DNA from: Nitrospirota bacterium
GTDB taxonomy: Bacteria; Nitrospirota; Thermodesulfovibrionia; Thermodesulfovibrionales; UBA6898
Reading direction: 5' to 3'
DNA: 37,018 bases
Assembly (NCBI GenBank): GCA_016217695.1
Contig: JACRHE010000001.1
Location: forward strand, 1 to 37,018
Part shown: positions 19,927-29,797 of the stretch, in pieces
How the letters are laid out: every line of letters begins with the position of its first letter
How positions within the stretch are numbered: position 1 is the first letter of the stretch
Position numbers and translations under genes: made by a program
The notes under the pieces: generated by a model
What the model was told of the DNA's origin: nothing
Seen by the model: the letters and a program-made list of their open reading frames with translations, nothing else
Database searches by the model: none

Positions 19927-21672
19927 TCAGGGGATGGTATATAGAGTCAGCCCTTTGTCACTGGCTATCACCGGAAGGTTGAGATGCCAGTCAGCAGGCG
20001 TGAGTATGTCAGTTACCTTGAAACGGCTTCTTATCATCTGCCACTCGGCCAGGGCTCTGTTTTCCCACAAAGGCCTGTGCAGATCGGTTATGACAGCAGA
20101 GTTTTTTTGTCCGGCCGGAGGCTCTGAAAAGATGTCCAACCCGTAGACGTCCCGCAGAATAGCGTTTAATTCAGGGCCGGACTCGGGAACGTAAGGCAAG
20201 AAATCAAGCCCACCGCCGTCCAGCAATACAGGACGGCGCGTAACCATTTGTATAAGGTGAAGATCTGCGGCGGTAAGCAGCAGACCCTCCCGTTCTGAAA
20301 TGATCGCAAAAAATTGATCGTTGGTCATATTACGGAAATCCCCGGTGATCTCGTCTCCGTGAAATATAAGGTTATAGGCAGCAGGAGCGACAGTTGTCAT
20401 TGCCGTCACCAGAAGCACCAGGCCGATCGTAATTGCATGCAGTTTTTCGCGGCGCAGAGAGGCCTTTTCTGCGATGGAGCAGGCAGAAGGGTACAAAATC
20501 GTCAGCAGCGCCCCGATGCCGGCTACATAATAAAAGAGGGCCTTCAGGTCCGGAAACAGGAGGAGCAGGAGAGACCCCCCGAAAAATAGGGGCAGAGTCA
20601 GGCGACCTGTCGTGGATGAGCCTAATATGCCTATTGTCATCGCCATAAAGGCGATGTTCGCAAGATTGAAATATCTGAAAGGCATCAGGACATTCAAGAA
20701 GCTGGACTTGGGTAACTGAATGGCGGCAGCCGAAAAGACAATAGAACAGACAACGGATACCGCAAAAATGCTGCTGATCAGTCTGACTGACCGAGGTGTC
20801 GTTTTCCTCGTTATCACGGTGATGCCGATAAGGCAGTTCAGAAGAGCGATCCTTATTCCGGGTGAGTCCCAGCCCGTAATGCTTCTGTGCAGATCAAAAT
20901 TCTCTATGAAGCTGTCCAGGTACTGGCTCTTCAACTGGGTATCCAGAACAGGCAGGTCCGCAAATAACCGGTATTGATATCCGAAACTTGCAAGACCGAG
21001 AAGGCAGCCCAGCATGGAAAAAATCACGATGGAGGAGCGGTAAGTCCGAAAGGTTTCGGCGTTGAAAAAAAACGAAACCGAGATGATGATAATCATAAAA
21101 ACGCCCAGAGACGGATGCACTGCCGGTGACAGACCTGCGAGGAGAGCGCCGGTCCTGAAATTGCCGGTCCCCAGGAAGCCTGCAGTCATGAGGATATAGG
21201 AAAGTCCGAGTATTCCGTAAGAGTGGGAGGTCCCCATGAGCCAGATAGGATATGCGTGGCCATAACCGACGAGATTCAGACCATAGACGAACAGAGGGCT
21301 GATCAGCGACAGCAGATAGTCTCTGCTGAAGGAAAAGGTTACAAGATACAATGCAGCGCAGGAGACTGCACCCATGAGGCCGGCAATGAGAAGGCTTAAG
21401 CTTATTTCAGAGACCCCTGCTGCAAGGAGCAGGGCGCCGGCCTGATTCAGCAGAGACCAGACCTTTATATGGTAGAGGTACATCGGATTGTTGACGGGGT
21501 ACTGTACAATGCCTGCCAGGACCTGTCCCGTCTCCACCGGCACCTGCCATGTGGGGGGGTGGTTTCCGACAGCGATCAGAAAGCCGAAGGCGGCGGATAT
21601 GATAAGCGCCGCATATGACTTGCGGTTCCAGAGTGATTCTGCCATGGAGTTAATCCACGTTTCCTTGTCCAT
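19927..21672 (-). CDS. Multi-pass membrane protein coupled to brnTA
   Basis: Inner-membrane protein of 581 aa with about a dozen hydrophobic segments from residue 20 to 430, including AALIISAAFGFLIAVG, ISLSLLIAGLMGAVSCAALYLV and FMIIIISVSFFF. A soluble C-terminal part of about 140 residues follows. The loop after TM1 (HPPTWQVPVETGQ) and PAVHPSLGVFM could carry functional residues. The layout recalls GT-C-type glycosyltransferases or related polyprenyl-dependent enzymes, but no family is assigned. Its ATG overlaps the brnA stop by one base (TAATG), implying co-translation with the antitoxin. No other RBS is evident. Confidence 0.85.
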   Translation of the reverse strand: MDKETWINSMAESLWNRKSYAALIISAAFGFLIAVGNHPPTWQVPVETGQVLAGIVQYPVNNPMYLYHIKVWSLLNQAGALLLAAGVSEISLSLLIAGLMGAVSCAALYLVTFSFSRDYLLSLISPLFVYGLNLVGYGHAYPIWLMGTSHSYGILGLSYILMTAGFLGTGNFRTGALLAGLSPAVHPSLGVFMIIIISVSFFFNAETFRTYRSSIVIFSMLGCLLGLASFGYQYRLFADLPVLDTQLKSQYLDSFIENFDLHRSITGWDSPGIRIALLNCLIGITVITRKTTPRSVRLISSIFAVSVVCSIVFSAAAIQLPKSSFLNVLMPFRYFNLANIAFMAMTIGILGSSTTGRLTLPLFFGGSLLLLLFPDLKALFYYVAGIGALLTILYPSACSIAEKASLRREKLHAITIGLVLLVTAMTTVAPAAYNLIFHGDEITGDFRNMTNDQFFAIISEREGLLLTAADLHLIQMVTRRPVLLDGGGLDFLPYVPESGPELNAILRDVYGLDIFSEPPAGQKNSAVITDLHRPLWENRALAEWQMIRSRFKVTDILTPADWHLNLPVIASDKGLTLYTIP

Positions 21673-21944
21673 TACATTTTTTTATGCACCTTCTCAGACA
21701 GCCAGACTTTGATAAGCGACTGGTAAGGCACATCACGCTTGTTAGCCTCGATCTTTATCTGTTCCAGGAGTGAAACCGGCAATCTGATCGATATTGACTG
21801 AGTGGACAGCTTGAGATTTGGGAAGCGTGCGCGTTCTGCCTTTGACCAGTCAAGATAATCCGTAGAGTCGTGAGTTTCCCAAAATTCGCGCTCTTCAGCT
21901 TCAGACTTGAATTGGGGGACCGGCTTAAGGTCTTTCCTGCTCAT
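21672..21944 (-). CDS. brnA: BrnA-type antitoxin (CopG/RHH)
   Basis: A 90-aa antitoxin. MSRKDLKPVPQFKSEAEEREFWETHDSTDYLDW is the typical CopG-antitoxin N-terminus that contacts the toxin. LSTQSISIRLPVSLLEQIKIEANKRDVPYQSLIKVWLSEKV is a ribbon-helix-helix DNA-binding unit. The start was chosen after AGAGGAG; the track ORF runs 61 residues further into brnT in another frame. In this family BrnA neutralises the RNase BrnT and, with it, represses the operon. The gene overlaps brnT by 20 bases. Its end (seven A residues, then TGTAATGG) overlaps the start of the membrane-protein gene. Confidence 0.93.
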   Translation of the reverse strand: MSRKDLKPVPQFKSEAEEREFWETHDSTDYLDWSKAERARFPNLKLSTQSISIRLPVSLLEQIKIEANKRDVPYQSLIKVWLSEKVHKKM

Positions 21945-22227
21945 AAATACTCCTCTCTTTGCGATGCATTGCCCGTGCGGAAATGATCCGTATTTTTGTA
22001 CCACTGCTCCGGAGAGTGAAGCTGACGTGCAACAACCGTTCTTCATTTGTCTTTCCCAGGGCATGAAATCGCGGTTCACCATGACTATGTTTCTTATCCG
22101 GCAATAACAGCAACGGCTCGTTGACAAAGACCTGCTCTGCTTCCGTTTGTGTTACGCCATGCTTTTCATTTTTTCGTGTATTGCCCGAGTCCCATTCAAA
22201 CCCTTCGATGCCCCGCAAATCTATCAC
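21925..22227 (-). CDS. brnT: BrnT-type ribonuclease toxin
   Basis: A 100-aa toxin of the BrnT/DUF497 family, a RelE-like fold RNase that stalls translation. Family hallmarks are GFEWDSGNTRKNEKHGVTQTEAEQVF, GEPRFHALGKTNEERLLHVSFTLR and RIISARAMHRKERSIYEQ. The start is GTG; no upstream Shine-Dalgarno is visible and the predicted transcription start falls at or next to this codon, so the message may be leaderless. The toxin precedes the antitoxin, the usual order for this family. Confidence 0.93.
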   Translation of the reverse strand: MIDLRGIEGFEWDSGNTRKNEKHGVTQTEAEQVFVNEPLLLLPDKKHSHGEPRFHALGKTNEERLLHVSFTLRSSGTKIRIISARAMHRKERSIYEQERP

Positions 22228-22315: not shown

Positions 22316-24130
22316 TTATTTTTTCAGGTGAAACGGCACGCTTGTCGATACCACTCCCTTTTTAAATAAAAGTATTCCCTTGAGAAAAAGTGCAGTCTGG
22401 TTGTGCAGAAGTTGATGCCACCACTTTGTCGGCACAAACTCCGGCAGCACTACTGTGATGACGCCGTCAGGATATTTTTCGCGTATGCCATCAATATAGT
22501 CCATCAGAGGTTCTGTCACGGACCTGTATGGCGAATGCAGGATTTCGAGTCTTACTCCCATGCATCGCTCGTCCCACTTCTCCTTCATCTTCCTGGTCTC
22601 GACAGGGTCAATGTATACATAAACGGCAGTGACGTCGTGAGATAGGGCCTTCCCGTATTTTATCGCCCCGATGACCGCCTGCTGCATGCCCGAGATCGGG
22701 ACAATGACCGAGTGATGCTGATAATCCCTTTCGTCGACAATGCAGCTATCCAGGGATAACTGCTCGGCAACGGAGCTGTAGTGCTTATTGACTTCTTTGG
22801 CAAGGTAGACGAGAAGAGGGATGGCGATAAGCACCATCCAGGCCCCCTGACTGAATTTTTCAACTGCGATGATGATGAGAACCACTCCTGTGACTGCTCC
22901 TCCTGTGCCGTTGATGATTGCGCTCTTGAACCAGCCTTTTCCCCTGTCTTTTACCCAGTGCCTAACCATACCAATCTGGGAGAGAGTGAAGGCAGTGAAA
23001 ACACCTACTGCATACAGAGGAATTAGTGAGTGGGTGTCGCCTTTGAATATCACCAGCAGCAGGGCGGAGAGAATTCCGAGTATCAGTATGCCGTTTGAAA
23101 ATACAAGCTTGTCGCCGCGATTGCTGAGCTGTCTCGGCAGGTAGCGGTCATTCGCCATGATGGAGGAGAGCCTCGGGAAGTCCGCATATGAGGTATTGGC
23201 TGCAAGGATAAGTATAAGGGCCGTGGCGAACTGTATCACGTAGTAGATAATGCCTTTGGAAAAGACGGTCCTTGCGAGCTGTGAAAGCACCGTTTCATCG
23301 GCACTCGGCAGGATTGCGTAGTGATTGGCGAAATAGGCTATGCCGATGGTCAGGATAGCCAGGGTGAAGGCCATCCACACCAGCGTTGTACCGGCATTCT
23401 TGGCCTCCGGCGCCTTAAAGGCCTTGACCCCGTTTGAGACCGCCTCGATGCCTGTGAGGGTCGCACAGCCGGAGGCAAAGGCCTTCAGTATGATGAAGAC
23501 CGGGAATATAGCTGAACCGCTTTCCCTGATCTCGGCATAAGGGAGACGGGGCAGGCCGAAGGCTTTCATGAAACTGGCGCCTATGAGCAGGAGCAGACTT
23601 CCGATGAAGATGTAGACCGGCAGGGAGAAGACCTTGCCGGATTCCCTCACCCCCCTGAGGTTCATAAGCGAGATGAAGAGTATCGCAGAAAGACAGAGCG
23701 CGATAGCGTGATCTTTCATCGAAGGGAAGGCAGATGTTATTGCTGCTATGCCTGCGGACACGCTGACCGTGACAGTAAGAACGTAGTCGATGAGAAGGGC
23801 AGATCCTGCAATAAGGCCGGGATAGTCTCCGAGGTTGTCCTTTGCCACGATGTAGGCTCCGCCGCCCGAGGAGTATGCATGGATCGTCTGGTAATACGAT
23901 GTGGCCACGATCGCCACCAGAATGACGATAGCGACCGCAATGGGCAGCAGGTAGTTAAGGAGGGCTGCCCCGCCCAGCACCAGGGCGAACAGTATCTCTT
24001 CAGTTCCGTACGCCACTGATGAAAGCGGGTCGGATGAAAAAACAGCCAGCCCCATGGTTTTCGACAGGCGCTCGTGTTTTTCCTTGACTGATTCGATAGG
24101 ACTGCCGATGAGAAAACTTTTGATAGACAT
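22316..24130 (-). CDS. kimA: KimA-type c-di-AMP-controlled K+ transporter (APC family)
   Basis: Inner-membrane potassium importer of 604 aa, close to the 607 aa of the Bacillus KimA/YdaO protein. The start MSIKSFLIGSP was chosen because AAAAGGAGAAGTGTC precedes it. Family signatures include KTMGLAVFSSDPLSSVAYGTEEI, SSGGGAYIVAKDNLG, FASGCATLTGIEAVSNGVKAF and FTLSQIGMVRHW, spread over about 12 TMs. A cytoplasmic C-terminal domain of about 150 residues (SVIVPISGMQQAVIGAIKYGKAL) follows. Its leader is a ydaO riboswitch with a transcription terminator, so high c-di-AMP should switch it off. The P-type ATPase and Usp lie a few kb away. Confidence 0.93.
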   Translation of the reverse strand: MSIKSFLIGSPIESVKEKHERLSKTMGLAVFSSDPLSSVAYGTEEILFALVLGGAALLNYLLPIAVAIVILVAIVATSYYQTIHAYSSGGGAYIVAKDNLGDYPGLIAGSALLIDYVLTVTVSVSAGIAAITSAFPSMKDHAIALCLSAILFISLMNLRGVRESGKVFSLPVYIFIGSLLLLIGASFMKAFGLPRLPYAEIRESGSAIFPVFIILKAFASGCATLTGIEAVSNGVKAFKAPEAKNAGTTLVWMAFTLAILTIGIAYFANHYAILPSADETVLSQLARTVFSKGIIYYVIQFATALILILAANTSYADFPRLSSIMANDRYLPRQLSNRGDKLVFSNGILILGILSALLLVIFKGDTHSLIPLYAVGVFTAFTLSQIGMVRHWVKDRGKGWFKSAIINGTGGAVTGVVLIIIAVEKFSQGAWMVLIAIPLLVYLAKEVNKHYSSVAEQLSLDSCIVDERDYQHHSVIVPISGMQQAVIGAIKYGKALSHDVTAVYVYIDPVETRKMKEKWDERCMGVRLEILHSPYRSVTEPLMDYIDGIREKYPDGVITVVLPEFVPTKWWHQLLHNQTALFLKGILLFKKGVVSTSVPFHLKK

Positions 24131-24161
24131 GACACTTCTCCTTTTAGCGGGCAAAAAGGAG

Positions 24162-24187
24162 AAAATAAAAAACCGCCGGGAGGCGGT
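24162..24187 (-). terminator. Riboswitch expression-platform terminator
   Basis: In the kimA sense the stem is ACCGCC, TCCC, GGCGGT, followed at once by TTTTTTATTTT. It lies between the ydaO aptamer and the kimA start codon, the classic position for an intrinsic terminator controlled by the aptamer. Confidence 0.88.
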
Positions 24188-24209
24188 CTTCATTTCAGGC
24201 CTTTGCCCT

Positions 24210-24340
24210 TCCAAGTGCCTACGAGGTTAGCTGACGGGCTCGGGATTGGAAGTTCCCTATCCTTTCGGAATACGCCCCAATTATTGGGTCCCCCGCGTCC
24301 ATTCCCATCAATGATGGTAAATGGACCTCGGCTACAATAT
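24210..24340 (-). promoter_or_regulatory. ydaO/yuaA (c-di-AMP) riboswitch
   Basis: In the kimA sense the leader contains, in order, a P2-like stem GTCCATT/AATGGAC, GCGGGGGACCCAA, TTGGGGCG, CCCGAGCCCGTCAG and CAGCTAACCTCGTAGGC. The last two blocks are the near-invariant core of the ydaO-yuaA aptamer, which binds two c-di-AMP molecules (family knowledge). It ends about 25 nt before a terminator and sits upstream of a KimA-type gene, the best known target of this riboswitch. The exact outer P1 pairing could not be fixed by eye. Confidence 0.93.
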
Positions 24341-24347
24341 TTGAGTT

Positions 24348-24377
24348 ATCCTAACTCCGGAAAAACAGCTTTGTCAA
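24348..24377 (-). promoter_or_regulatory. kimA promoter
   Basis: Minus-strand TTGACA (24377-24372), an 18-nt spacer and TAGGAT (24353-24348). The predicted transcript begins near 24341, directly in front of the riboswitch. Confidence 0.6.
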
Positions 24378-26295: not shown

Positions 26296-28968
26296 CTATA
26301 AAGCGGATTTTGCAGCGTGATGCGGCTGAGCATACCTGAGGACCGCCTTTCGTGCCTCCTCGGCAAAGAACAGGACAAAGGCAAAAGGGATGAGGACGAG
26401 CCATATGGATGAGGAGATTGGATAGGTAGCGAATATCCTGTTGCCCCAGGGGTGGTAGACGATAAAGAACTGGAGCGCCAGTTCAAAGGCTATGCCTGCA
26501 AATATCAGCCTGTTTGTGAAGAACCCGATGCTGAAGACAGACTCCCTCGATGATCTGCAGGCGAAAACATTTGCGACCTGCGTTATCACTATCCCTGTAA
26601 GACACGCGGTTGTGGCCTGCATATACAGTATGTTGTTTGCCTGGAGTATCTCTCCCCAGTGCCAGCCGCCCTGATATAAAAGCCAGAAAAAGCCGAACAT
26701 GCATGCTGCTGCCTCGAAAGGACCGAGGAAGAAATAGGCCCTTGCGATCAGCGGGAAGTTCAGCATCCTTTCCCCGGGCCTCCTCGGCGGCTGTTTCATG
26801 ATCCCCTGTGTCGGCCTTTCAGCTCCAAGGGCGAGGGCAGGCAGCATATCGGTCCCAAGGTCGACCGCCAATATCTGCATGATGGTCAGAGGGAGAGGAA
26901 TTCGCAGGAGTATATAAGAGAGGTAAGGCACCGCCTCAGGAATATTGGACGCGAAGATGTACGTAATGAATTTCCTGATATTCTCATAGACCGTCCTTCC
27001 TTCCTCGACCGCATTAACGATCGTCGCAAAATTGTCATCGAGGAGAACCATGTCGGAGGCCTCTTTGGCCACATCGGTGCCGGACATGCCCATCGATATG
27101 CCGATATCCGCCTTTTTCAGCGCCGGTGCATCATTTACTCCGTCGCCGGTTACCGCCACGACTTCACCTTCTCCCTTGAGTATGGAGACGACGCGCATCT
27201 TGTGCTTCGGCGTCATTCTCGAAAATATGACCTCTTTATGCGTAAGCGTCTTGCGCAGCTCATAGTCACTCATCTCACCGAAGCGCCTGCCCTCTACAAT
27301 GACAGGATCGCTCTGTATGAGGCCTATTTCCCGGCCGATGGCCACCGCTGTCCTGCTTGCATCGCCGGTAATCATTATCACCTTTATTCCTGCCTCGTTG
27401 CACTTGCCGATCGCTTCGGGCACTTCAGGCCGCGGCGGGTCTTCAAGTCCTATGAGGCCGAGAAAAATCATGTCCTGCTCAAGAGTTGAGAGATCAGGAC
27501 CGGGACGGTCTTCCATATCGCGATGGGCGAAGGCCAGGACCCTCAGACCCCTGTCCATGAGACTTTGACAGGAATCAAGTATCTTAGACCTGACCGCATC
27601 ATCTATCAATGTCTTGCGTCCTTCTTTCAGAAGGTGGCTGCAGAGGGGCAGAAGTCCTTCGACAGAGCCCTTCGAAAATGCGAAGACCTTTCCTCCTGTT
27701 CTGTTTACCGTAGACATACGTTTTCTTTCGGGGTCAAAGGGTATCTCGGCAAGGCGTTCATTTTCGATATCCCCGATCATTTCCCGTGCAGTTTTCAGGA
27801 TGGCAGTCTCCGTGGGATCGCCCTTATACTGTCCTTCCATAAACCGGGCATTGTTGCAGAGAAGGGCGGTAATCAGTAGTTCAGGCGCATCTTCCTTATG
27901 AAGGTCGCCGGTATTAATGGTTCTATCGTATACCCACAGCCTGGATACGGCCATCCTGTTTTGGGTAAGCGTCCCTGTCTTGTCGGTACAGATGACCGAA
28001 ACTGAACCGAGCGTCTCAACAGCTGTAAGAGTTTTGATGAGGGCCTTTCTCTTTGCCATCCTCTGGCTTCCCATTGCGAGGGACAGGGTTACGGTAGGAA
28101 GCATTCCCTCGGGGATAAGCGCGACCGTAATGCCGATCGCAAAGATGAAGTTGTCCCAGAAGTTCCTGCCGATTACGAAGCCAAGACAGAAAAAGAATAT
28201 GCCTACGCCTGCTGCGATTGCGGCAACCACTCTTGTTGCCTTTACGATCTCCTTCTGAAGAGGGCTCAGACCCGGTTCAACGGCGCTTGTGAGAAGGGCT
28301 ATCCTGCCGAACTCTGTCCTCATGCCTGTTGCGAATACGGCGGCCATGCCTGAGCCGCTCACAATGGTCGTCCCTGCAAAGGCTATGTTGGAACTCTCCA
28401 TGAACTCGCCCTGAAACGGATCACTACTTCTCGAAAGCGGTTCCGCCTCCCCGGTGAGAGGGGCGTTGTTCACCTTCAAACCTGAGGACTCTATGACCCT
28501 GGAATCAGCCGGAACCTTGTCACCCTCTGAGAGGATCATCACGTCCCCCGGTACGACTTCACCTGCCGTGATCTCCTTTTCTCTGCCGTCTCTGAGGACC
28601 CTTACGAAAAAAGGGAGGAGTTTTTGCAGTTCTTCGAGAGCCTTTTCAGCGCGGTATTCCTGGATGAAAGTGAACACCGCATTTATGAATATCACGGCCA
28701 CTATGGCGATGCCGAGGGTGAGCATTCCCTCACCGGGATGCAGATATTCTGAGAGAAACGACATGGCTGAAGCTATCCAGAGGAGTATGGCGAGAAAGTG
28801 GGTGAACTGGTCAAGGAACCTGATCAGCAGGGATCTTCTCCCAACCTCTGTGATCTTATTGGGGCCAAATTCGGAAAGGCGCCTTCCGGCTTCATCTTCA
28901 GAAAGCCCGGTTTCCGATGTCACAAGGGTATGAAATACGTCATCCTTCGAGAGGCTATGAATTTTCAT
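26296..28968 (-). CDS. P-type ATPase, Na,K/Ca-type (P2, IIC-like)
   Basis: Membrane cation pump of 890 aa. A cation-ATPase N-domain (about 5-70) precedes the TMs. Key sites: LTGEAEPL near 171 (A domain), IPEGMLPTVTLSLAMGSQRMA in M4, phosphorylation site ICTDKTGTLTQNRM near 329, MITGDAS, and VTGDGVNDAPALKKADIGI near 610. In M5-M6 is PLPLTIMQILAVDLGTDMLPALALGAE (about 690-715). The DLGTDM and PEGML segments resemble animal Na,K/H,K-ATPases more than PacL-type Ca2+ pumps, which have PEGLPAVVT. Transport of K+/Na+ is therefore a reasonable inference, not proof. The ATG lies within the usp gene 3' end (14-base overlap), indicating an operon. Confidence 0.93.
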   Translation of the reverse strand: MKIHSLSKDDVFHTLVTSETGLSEDEAGRRLSEFGPNKITEVGRRSLLIRFLDQFTHFLAILLWIASAMSFLSEYLHPGEGMLTLGIAIVAVIFINAVFTFIQEYRAEKALEELQKLLPFFVRVLRDGREKEITAGEVVPGDVMILSEGDKVPADSRVIESSGLKVNNAPLTGEAEPLSRSSDPFQGEFMESSNIAFAGTTIVSGSGMAAVFATGMRTEFGRIALLTSAVEPGLSPLQKEIVKATRVVAAIAAGVGIFFFCLGFVIGRNFWDNFIFAIGITVALIPEGMLPTVTLSLAMGSQRMAKRKALIKTLTAVETLGSVSVICTDKTGTLTQNRMAVSRLWVYDRTINTGDLHKEDAPELLITALLCNNARFMEGQYKGDPTETAILKTAREMIGDIENERLAEIPFDPERKRMSTVNRTGGKVFAFSKGSVEGLLPLCSHLLKEGRKTLIDDAVRSKILDSCQSLMDRGLRVLAFAHRDMEDRPGPDLSTLEQDMIFLGLIGLEDPPRPEVPEAIGKCNEAGIKVIMITGDASRTAVAIGREIGLIQSDPVIVEGRRFGEMSDYELRKTLTHKEVIFSRMTPKHKMRVVSILKGEGEVVAVTGDGVNDAPALKKADIGISMGMSGTDVAKEASDMVLLDDNFATIVNAVEEGRTVYENIRKFITYIFASNIPEAVPYLSYILLRIPLPLTIMQILAVDLGTDMLPALALGAERPTQGIMKQPPRRPGERMLNFPLIARAYFFLGPFEAAACMFGFFWLLYQGGWHWGEILQANNILYMQATTACLTGIVITQVANVFACRSSRESVFSIGFFTNRLIFAGIAFELALQFFIVYHPWGNRIFATYPISSSIWLVLIPFAFVLFFAEEARKAVLRYAQPHHAAKSAL

Positions 28969-29797
28969 GACGGGGCCTGAAGATGATGAGGTCGCAGGGG
29001 GAATTCCTAAGCAGTTCTTCCACTGGATTGCCTTTCACAATGGAGCTGAACATACTTCTCTGACTCGCGCCCATGATGATGAGATCATGCCTTTTTGCCG
29101 ACGCCTCCAGCGCGATGGTTTTGCCGGTCCTGCCGGGTACAGTTCCACCGGTGTGGATGACCTTATACCTTTTCATGTGTCCCATGAAATGAGAGATGTC
29201 CTTCGGCAGCTTTTCTTCCCATTGAAGCGGCGTAAGGTGGACCTCACCATGAAAGAATTTCGACATAGGTGCAGGGGCATGAAAGAGGAAGACGTTTGCG
29301 CCGAAGGCCTGCGAGATCCTGGCCGTAAAGTAGACCCTCTCTTCGACATGATCGATCCTTGCCTTTAGCGGGACGAGGATATTCTTCGGATGTATCCTTC
29401 CGGCATGCACTACCCGTACGAGAGCGACAGAGCAGGGCAGTCTGAGAGACAGGCTGCGCGCCACAGTGCCTGTAAAGAATCTTCTCTCCACATCCGCTTT
29501 CCTCGTTGATGCAAAGACAAGATCGATGCCCTCTTTTTTTGTGAGTTCCCCGATCCTCTTTACAGGGTCCCCTGACTCCGTTAGCGCTTCCACTTCCACA
29601 CCTGCCTTTTCCGCCTCAACGAATATCCTCTTCATCGCCTCCTCAGCACGGTCAAGAACCGCAGAAGGCTGAGCTTTTTCAGCAATAAAGCAGAGAAAGA
29701 GCTTTGCTTCACAGGCCGCCGCAAGCTTGAGGGCATATCTTGCGGAGACCTCGGAGTTCAGATGTTCATTGACGGCAGCGAGGATCTTTCTGTACAT
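28955..29797 (-). CDS. Tandem universal stress protein
   Basis: A 280-aa cytoplasmic protein with two Usp domains. The first (1-130) begins MYRKILAAVNEHLNSEVSARYALKLAA and includes FFTGTVARSLSLRLPCSVALVR. The second (about 138-280) begins HPKNILVPLKARIDHVEERVYF and ends IIMGASQRSMFSSIVKGNPVEELLRNSPCDLIIFRP. The nucleotide loop GxxG-x9-G(S/T) is only partly kept in each half, so ATP binding is uncertain. It is the first gene of a two-gene unit with the P-type ATPase. This suggests a regulatory or stress link to ion pumping, a pairing often seen for transporter-linked Usp proteins. Confidence 0.92.
   Translation of the reverse strand: MYRKILAAVNEHLNSEVSARYALKLAAACEAKLFLCFIAEKAQPSAVLDRAEEAMKRIFVEAEKAGVEVEALTESGDPVKRIGELTKKEGIDLVFASTRKADVERRFFTGTVARSLSLRLPCSVALVRVVHAGRIHPKNILVPLKARIDHVEERVYFTARISQAFGANVFLFHAPAPMSKFFHGEVHLTPLQWEEKLPKDISHFMGHMKRYKVIHTGGTVPGRTGKTIALEASAKRHDLIIMGASQRSMFSSIVKGNPVEELLRNSPCDLIIFRPRHENS

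Follow-up and report, generated by a model that had tools for sequence, protein, structure and literature searches.

In the window (the whole 37,018-nt stretch of DNA analysed, positions 1 to 37,018 of contig JACRHE010000001.1 from a Nitrospirota bacterium), the region that separates the end of an aldolase-like gene (24418) from the ATG of kimA (24130) carries, on the minus strand and in this order, a promoter, a c-di-AMP aptamer, an intrinsic terminator, a hairpin that sequesters the Shine-Dalgarno (SD) sequence, and the start codon (Table 1). The preliminary description of this DNA had placed a promoter, a ydaO core, an intrinsic terminator and a ribosome-binding site ahead of kimA, and all of these were located in that order; it did not mention the hairpin that sequesters the SD downstream of the terminator, nor the broader family of platforms described below. 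The promoter matches the sigma-70 consensus at 10 of 12 positions, and of 86 related leaders, 74 have TTGAC about 43 nt ahead of P1, compared with 10 of 369 control windows. In the window one reading frame runs open from the tail into kimA; the idea that it is an extended or leader ORF was dropped because the frame is not conserved.

Table 1. Features of the kimA leader and of kimA, with the evidence on which each is based
Feature	Position	Strand	Basis
Sigma-70-type promoter: TTGACA (24377-24372), 18 nt, TAGGAT (24353-24348)	24348..24377	-	
c-di-AMP (ydaO/yuaA) riboswitch aptamer, RF00379	24201..24343	-	cmscan
Pseudoknot loop strand CUUCCA	24247..24252	-	sequence and pairing conservation in relatives
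Pseudoknot tail strand UGGAAG, aptamer 3′ end	24208..24213	-	sequence and pairing conservation in relatives
Tail GGGCAAA, complementary to UUUGCCC of SD hairpin; proposed switching strand	24202..24208	-	inference
Intrinsic terminator: hairpin GAAGACCGCC-UCCC-GGCGGUUUUU, with a U-rich tract reaching about 24162	24168..24191	-	
SD-sequestering hairpin UUCUCCUUUU-UGCCCGCU-AAAAGGAGAA, loop GCCC at 24152-24149	24136..24163	-	folding, conserved in relatives
Shine-Dalgarno (RBS) GGAG	24138..24141	-	7 nt ahead of kimA ATG
kimA, 604-aa KimA-type K+ importer	22316..24130	-	PF13520; PDB 6s3k

The product of the downstream gene is an APC-superfamily protein (PF13520 match) whose sole match in the PDB is KimA (6s3k, residues 4-607, E 4.9e-162), which bears out its earlier assignment as a KimA-type K+ importer. 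Its nearest named loci, 70% identical, are in Nitrospirae MAGs, in agreement with the Gram-negative lineage that had been suspected, here the Nitrospirota. The genome also encodes kup, without an aptamer. Elsewhere on the minus strand of the window, 21672-22227 holds a CopG-type antitoxin gene (PF12441) with a short upstream ORF resembling a BrnT-type toxin partner, and 26296-29797, upstream of the kimA region, an 890-aa type II cation-transporting P-type ATPase adjoining a tandem universal stress protein.

RF00379 matches the window over the full length of the model (1-134 of 134) with 80.7 bits (E 2.1e-17; gathering score 38). The Infernal search that had been suggested as a check thus returned a strong match, and this covariance-model match alone settles that the aptamer is more than chance. 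The two core blocks of the ydaO aptamer pointed out earlier, GGGGGACCC and GTCAGCTAACCTCGTAGGC, are both found in the sequence. The aptamer is the only RF00379 copy in the genome and ends 71 nt from the kimA start, with the terminator in between. Crystal structures of ydaO describe a pseudoknot (PMC5393176), and this pairing of a hairpin loop with the 3′ tail is also present in the window aptamer. Across 85 leaders the loop-tail pairs are intact in 99% of cells, with compensatory changes (the pair variants include CUUCCA/UGGAAG, CUUUCA/UGAAAG and CUCUUU/AAAGAG). One leader upstream of kimA (L072 in genome G052) has a 224-nt c-di-AMP aptamer, one helix of which contains a large insertion.

The genome searched for signalling genes is 87% complete and consists of 221 contigs. 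It encodes a diadenylate cyclase DAC domain (PF02457, E 1e-42) that is nearest to CdaA, with a TIGR00159 score of 182.9 bits, below the cut-off of 188.8, for a protein cut by a contig end. A YbbR (cdaR-like) gene and then glmM follow the cyclase gene; the order cdaA-cdaR-glmM is known from Firmicutes. The search for a DisA- or CdaA-type cyclase, the other check that had been suggested, therefore found the CdaA type, and the c-di-AMP signalling that had been implied for this lineage is matched by an encoded cyclase. A candidate for the c-di-AMP phosphodiesterase, a 317-aa DhhP/NrnA-like protein (DHH/DHHA1, with a DHHA1 match), adjoins a truB-like ORF, both names being given by reading the sequence. 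By analogy with the known class, the RNA switch in the window very probably senses c-di-AMP.

The terminator stem has 10 pairs followed by a U tract, and 0.6 comparable sites would be expected for the region in shuffled sequence. Most related leaders have a hairpin and U tract at a like distance after P1 (U tract from about 46-55 nt), and the stem pairs are preserved in 43-49 sequences of a 49-leader alignment. Consensus folding of the sequence ahead of the 3′ terminator arm, done to look for a shared antiterminator, yielded almost nothing and no conserved helix, and single-sequence folds differed from leader to leader and shared no helix. GCCC in the terminator loop was considered as the main partner of the tail and dropped, because the modelled tail pairs mostly with the SD region (8.1 expected pairs versus 0.6 with the terminator loop) and because the loop in the window is UCCC; pairing between the tail and the terminator loop was not significant when native and swapped combinations were compared.

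The aptamer occurs in 74 of 396 genomes of a phylum-wide sample. Among 61 relatives, 30 have the aptamer, 58 a DAC cyclase and 25 kimA, and the aptamer directly precedes 22 of these 25 kimA genes; the three without it (G028, G040 and G060) all belong to family f3. The kimA relatives in these three genomes, and also L033, L034 and L037, are about 62-64% identical and have no upstream RF00379 match. We compiled 90 leaders, comprising the window, 86 from other genomes of the phylum, L036, L038 and the verrucomicrobial L040. The first gene after the aptamer is kup in 29 and kimA-like in 53, a count that includes the distant L040, G080 and G063-type group (29-36% identity), which may be other APC transporters; the other 8, by reading of their translations, are mostly kdp operons or TrkH-like (trkH). 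In four leaders (L046, L104, L105 and L058) a small exported protein of about 90-108 aa, with the signature SPxPEEVKPG..TVC.IHI.Y....ECKFPK, lies between the c-di-AMP aptamer and kdpA-like genes, and L077 has a shortened form of it ahead of kimA. A literature search for c-di-AMP or the ydaO riboswitch jointly with Nitrospira(e) found no papers.

Since almost every first gene in the 90 leaders is a K+ importer, the window element is an ordinary representative of an established class in a phylum that has received little study. Judged from its sequence distribution, the survey shows predicted c-di-AMP control of K+ uptake by a ydaO-type switch to be widespread in Nitrospirota rather than a Firmicutes speciality. 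An RNA switch ahead of a K+-uptake gene in Nitrospirota thus suggests that the known Firmicutes circuit also runs in this little-studied Gram-negative phylum, where, according to the modelling below, translation appears to be under an additional lock.

We consider it highly likely that the leader is an OFF switch ahead of kimA, responsive to c-di-AMP and limiting K+ uptake by termination. In this class, c-di-AMP binding promotes termination, and ydaO/kimA elements are OFF switches (PMC6488665, PMC9960051). Our reading takes the ligand, the OFF sense and termination from that work, whereas the aptamer, promoter, terminator, KimA, cyclase and conservation are seen here. The preliminary description had proposed a complete c-di-AMP switch before kimA, with K+ control implied, to be given up if either a covariance match or a cyclase were missing; both are present, and the proposal stands. 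The promoter would start the RNA at the aptamer or just before it. High K+ would raise c-di-AMP, and two c-di-AMP would fix the aptamer in its pseudoknotted form (CUUCCA paired with UGGAAG), with the 3′ tail held in this pairing by its first bases; by analogy with the class, the terminator would form in this ligand-bound state and kimA would stay untranscribed. At low c-di-AMP the tail would be released, the terminator bypassed, presumably through an antiterminator, and KimA made. A second and less certain layer may act on the read-through RNA, in which a hairpin would conceal the SD until the released tail GGGCAA paired with UUGCCC of this hairpin and opened it.

Several observations bear on this second layer. 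In most Nitrospirota terminator-type leaders an added hairpin hides the SD and bears a conserved GYCC; the stretch from terminator to start folds with CUCC paired to GGAG, and in the window the hairpin has a predicted energy of -11.0 kcal/mol and a fully paired SD. At least three-quarters of the SD is paired in 94% of 51 leaders versus 46% of 126 control genes, the latter chosen by an automatic ORF rule that may include false genes. This GYCC and the GGGC behind the pseudoknot strand are complementary, with pairing possible in 47-49 of 49 leaders. In folding models of the 51 leaders, SD openness drops from 0.57 for a free tail to 0.17 for a blocked one; it is 0.22 when GGGC is broken and 0.33 when GCCC is broken, and reaches 0.65 in the compensatory double mutant. 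With shuffled tails the average is 0.41, so the effect of the tail is in part unspecific and reflects general purine-pyrimidine pairing. The modelling suggests, with less certainty than the termination step, that the freed tail may open the SD through GGGC-GYCC pairing in read-through RNA.

A different arrangement is found in 12 leaders before kup or kimA that have no terminator and in which the SD lies within the tail strand (GAAAGG, UGGAGG), so that ligand binding would hide the SD directly in the pseudoknot. In 11 of the 12 a short ORF of about 14-28 codons (for example MTVQPTRRPSIVFPH) starts just after the tail SD and ends at or overlapping the transporter start (-30 to +12 nt from it). 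Shuffled sequences give an expectation of 1.8 (P 2e-9, for leaders that are interrelated and a set picked after the pattern was seen). Most of the transporters behind these short ORFs have no SD of their own, and in two further leaders, G299_C56 and G327_C50, the tail appears to be the SD of the transporter itself. The short-ORF leaders are G016 L048, G025 L064, G026 L060, G019 L065, G003 L061, G022 L054, G029 L051 and G256 L092, and, ahead of kimA, G334 L097, G398 L119 and G393 L120.

These arrangements point to a tentative general model, which we rate a little below an even chance, in which the 3′ pseudoknot tail of the aptamer serves the Nitrospirota switches as one output strand for several platforms. 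It would either form a double lock, with the ligand-gated tail governing both the terminator and, via GGGC-GYCC, the SD hairpin, or, where the terminator is absent, hold the SD in the pseudoknot strand and drive a short ORF whose translation is coupled to that of kup or kimA. The window would be of the double-lock type. A competing explanation, to which we likewise give slightly less than half of our belief, is that the switch acts through the terminator only, and that the SD hairpin and GYCC have no regulatory role, being ordinary leader structure or a GGGC/GYCC pair kept for another reason such as first-hairpin antitermination or RNA stability. Indeed, four Bacillota plasmid kimA leaders, standing in for the Bacillus subtilis platform, have the same aptamer and a terminator but, inspected by eye, neither the SD hairpin nor the GGGC tail, so the class works without them. 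The window itself also fits this explanation: its terminator and its SD hairpin can both be made out clearly, but release of the tail has a weak effect, the modelled SD openness being 0.19 for a free tail and 0.00 for a blocked one (0.81 in the compensatory double mutant), and support for tail opening is therefore weaker here than in relatives. Furthermore, native pairs between the tail and the SD loop had no advantage over swapped ones (p 0.11-0.99), and we therefore claim no covariation; the GGGC-GYCC pair is nearly invariant, and covariation therefore cannot prove the pairing. Against an SD hairpin of no consequence, the GYCC block is conserved better than anything else between terminator and SD, where the sequence on either side of it drifts, and 88% of leaders have a GCCC ahead of the SD, compared with 9.5% of control genes (Fisher 3e-24, a value that overstates the case because the leaders are interrelated and the control set may include false genes). 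A GGGC tail is also associated with an upstream GCCC across leaders (39/54 versus 2/17, in related leaders that are not independent).

Two further explanations concern the switch as a whole, and we regard both as very improbable. An aptamer whose specificity has drifted to a similar ligand, such as a different cyclic dinucleotide, would fit a score of 80.7 bits, which lies towards the lower part of the range among relatives, but the core blocks agree with the RF00379 consensus throughout, a DAC cyclase is encoded here and in nearly all of the 61 relatives, and the targets, like those of the known class, are K+ importers. Equally improbable is a decayed relic that has lost switching: in both of the states that were modelled, the SD hairpin of the window is stronger than usual, yet all parts are intact and in the usual order, with a full-length aptamer, a 10-pair terminator and a conserved promoter.

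With a terminator plus SD hairpin, an SD in the pseudoknot and a coupled leader ORF, the Nitrospirota offer a natural series of platforms on one aptamer, a test bed for the evolution of riboswitch output, and it is these platform variants that are worth following.

Compared with known systems, the window is closest to the kimA (ydaO) switch of Bacillus subtilis in aptamer class, expected OFF logic, terminator platform and downstream kimA. It differs in belonging to a Gram-negative phylum and in the compact SD-sequestering hairpin straight after the terminator, with a GYCC complementary to the tail, which the Bacillota plasmid kimA leaders do not have. The kdpFABC switch of Bacillus thuringiensis likewise combines RF00379 with a terminator on a K+ importer operon, although operon and phylum are different (PMC6488665); kdp is an RF00379 target in Nitrospirota too. 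A precedent for a translational c-di-AMP switch is nlpC of Corynebacterium glutamicum (PMC9960051), which is a cell-wall gene without a terminator, whereas the window has a terminator and an SD hairpin together; the terminator-less Nitrospirota relatives, unlike nlpC, have the SD in the pseudoknot strand and a coupled short ORF next. The kup leaders described here also resemble the B12 riboswitches of Mycobacterium tuberculosis, in which a switch with a different ligand and aptamer is likewise reported to be tied to translation of a short upstream ORF (PMC11260477).
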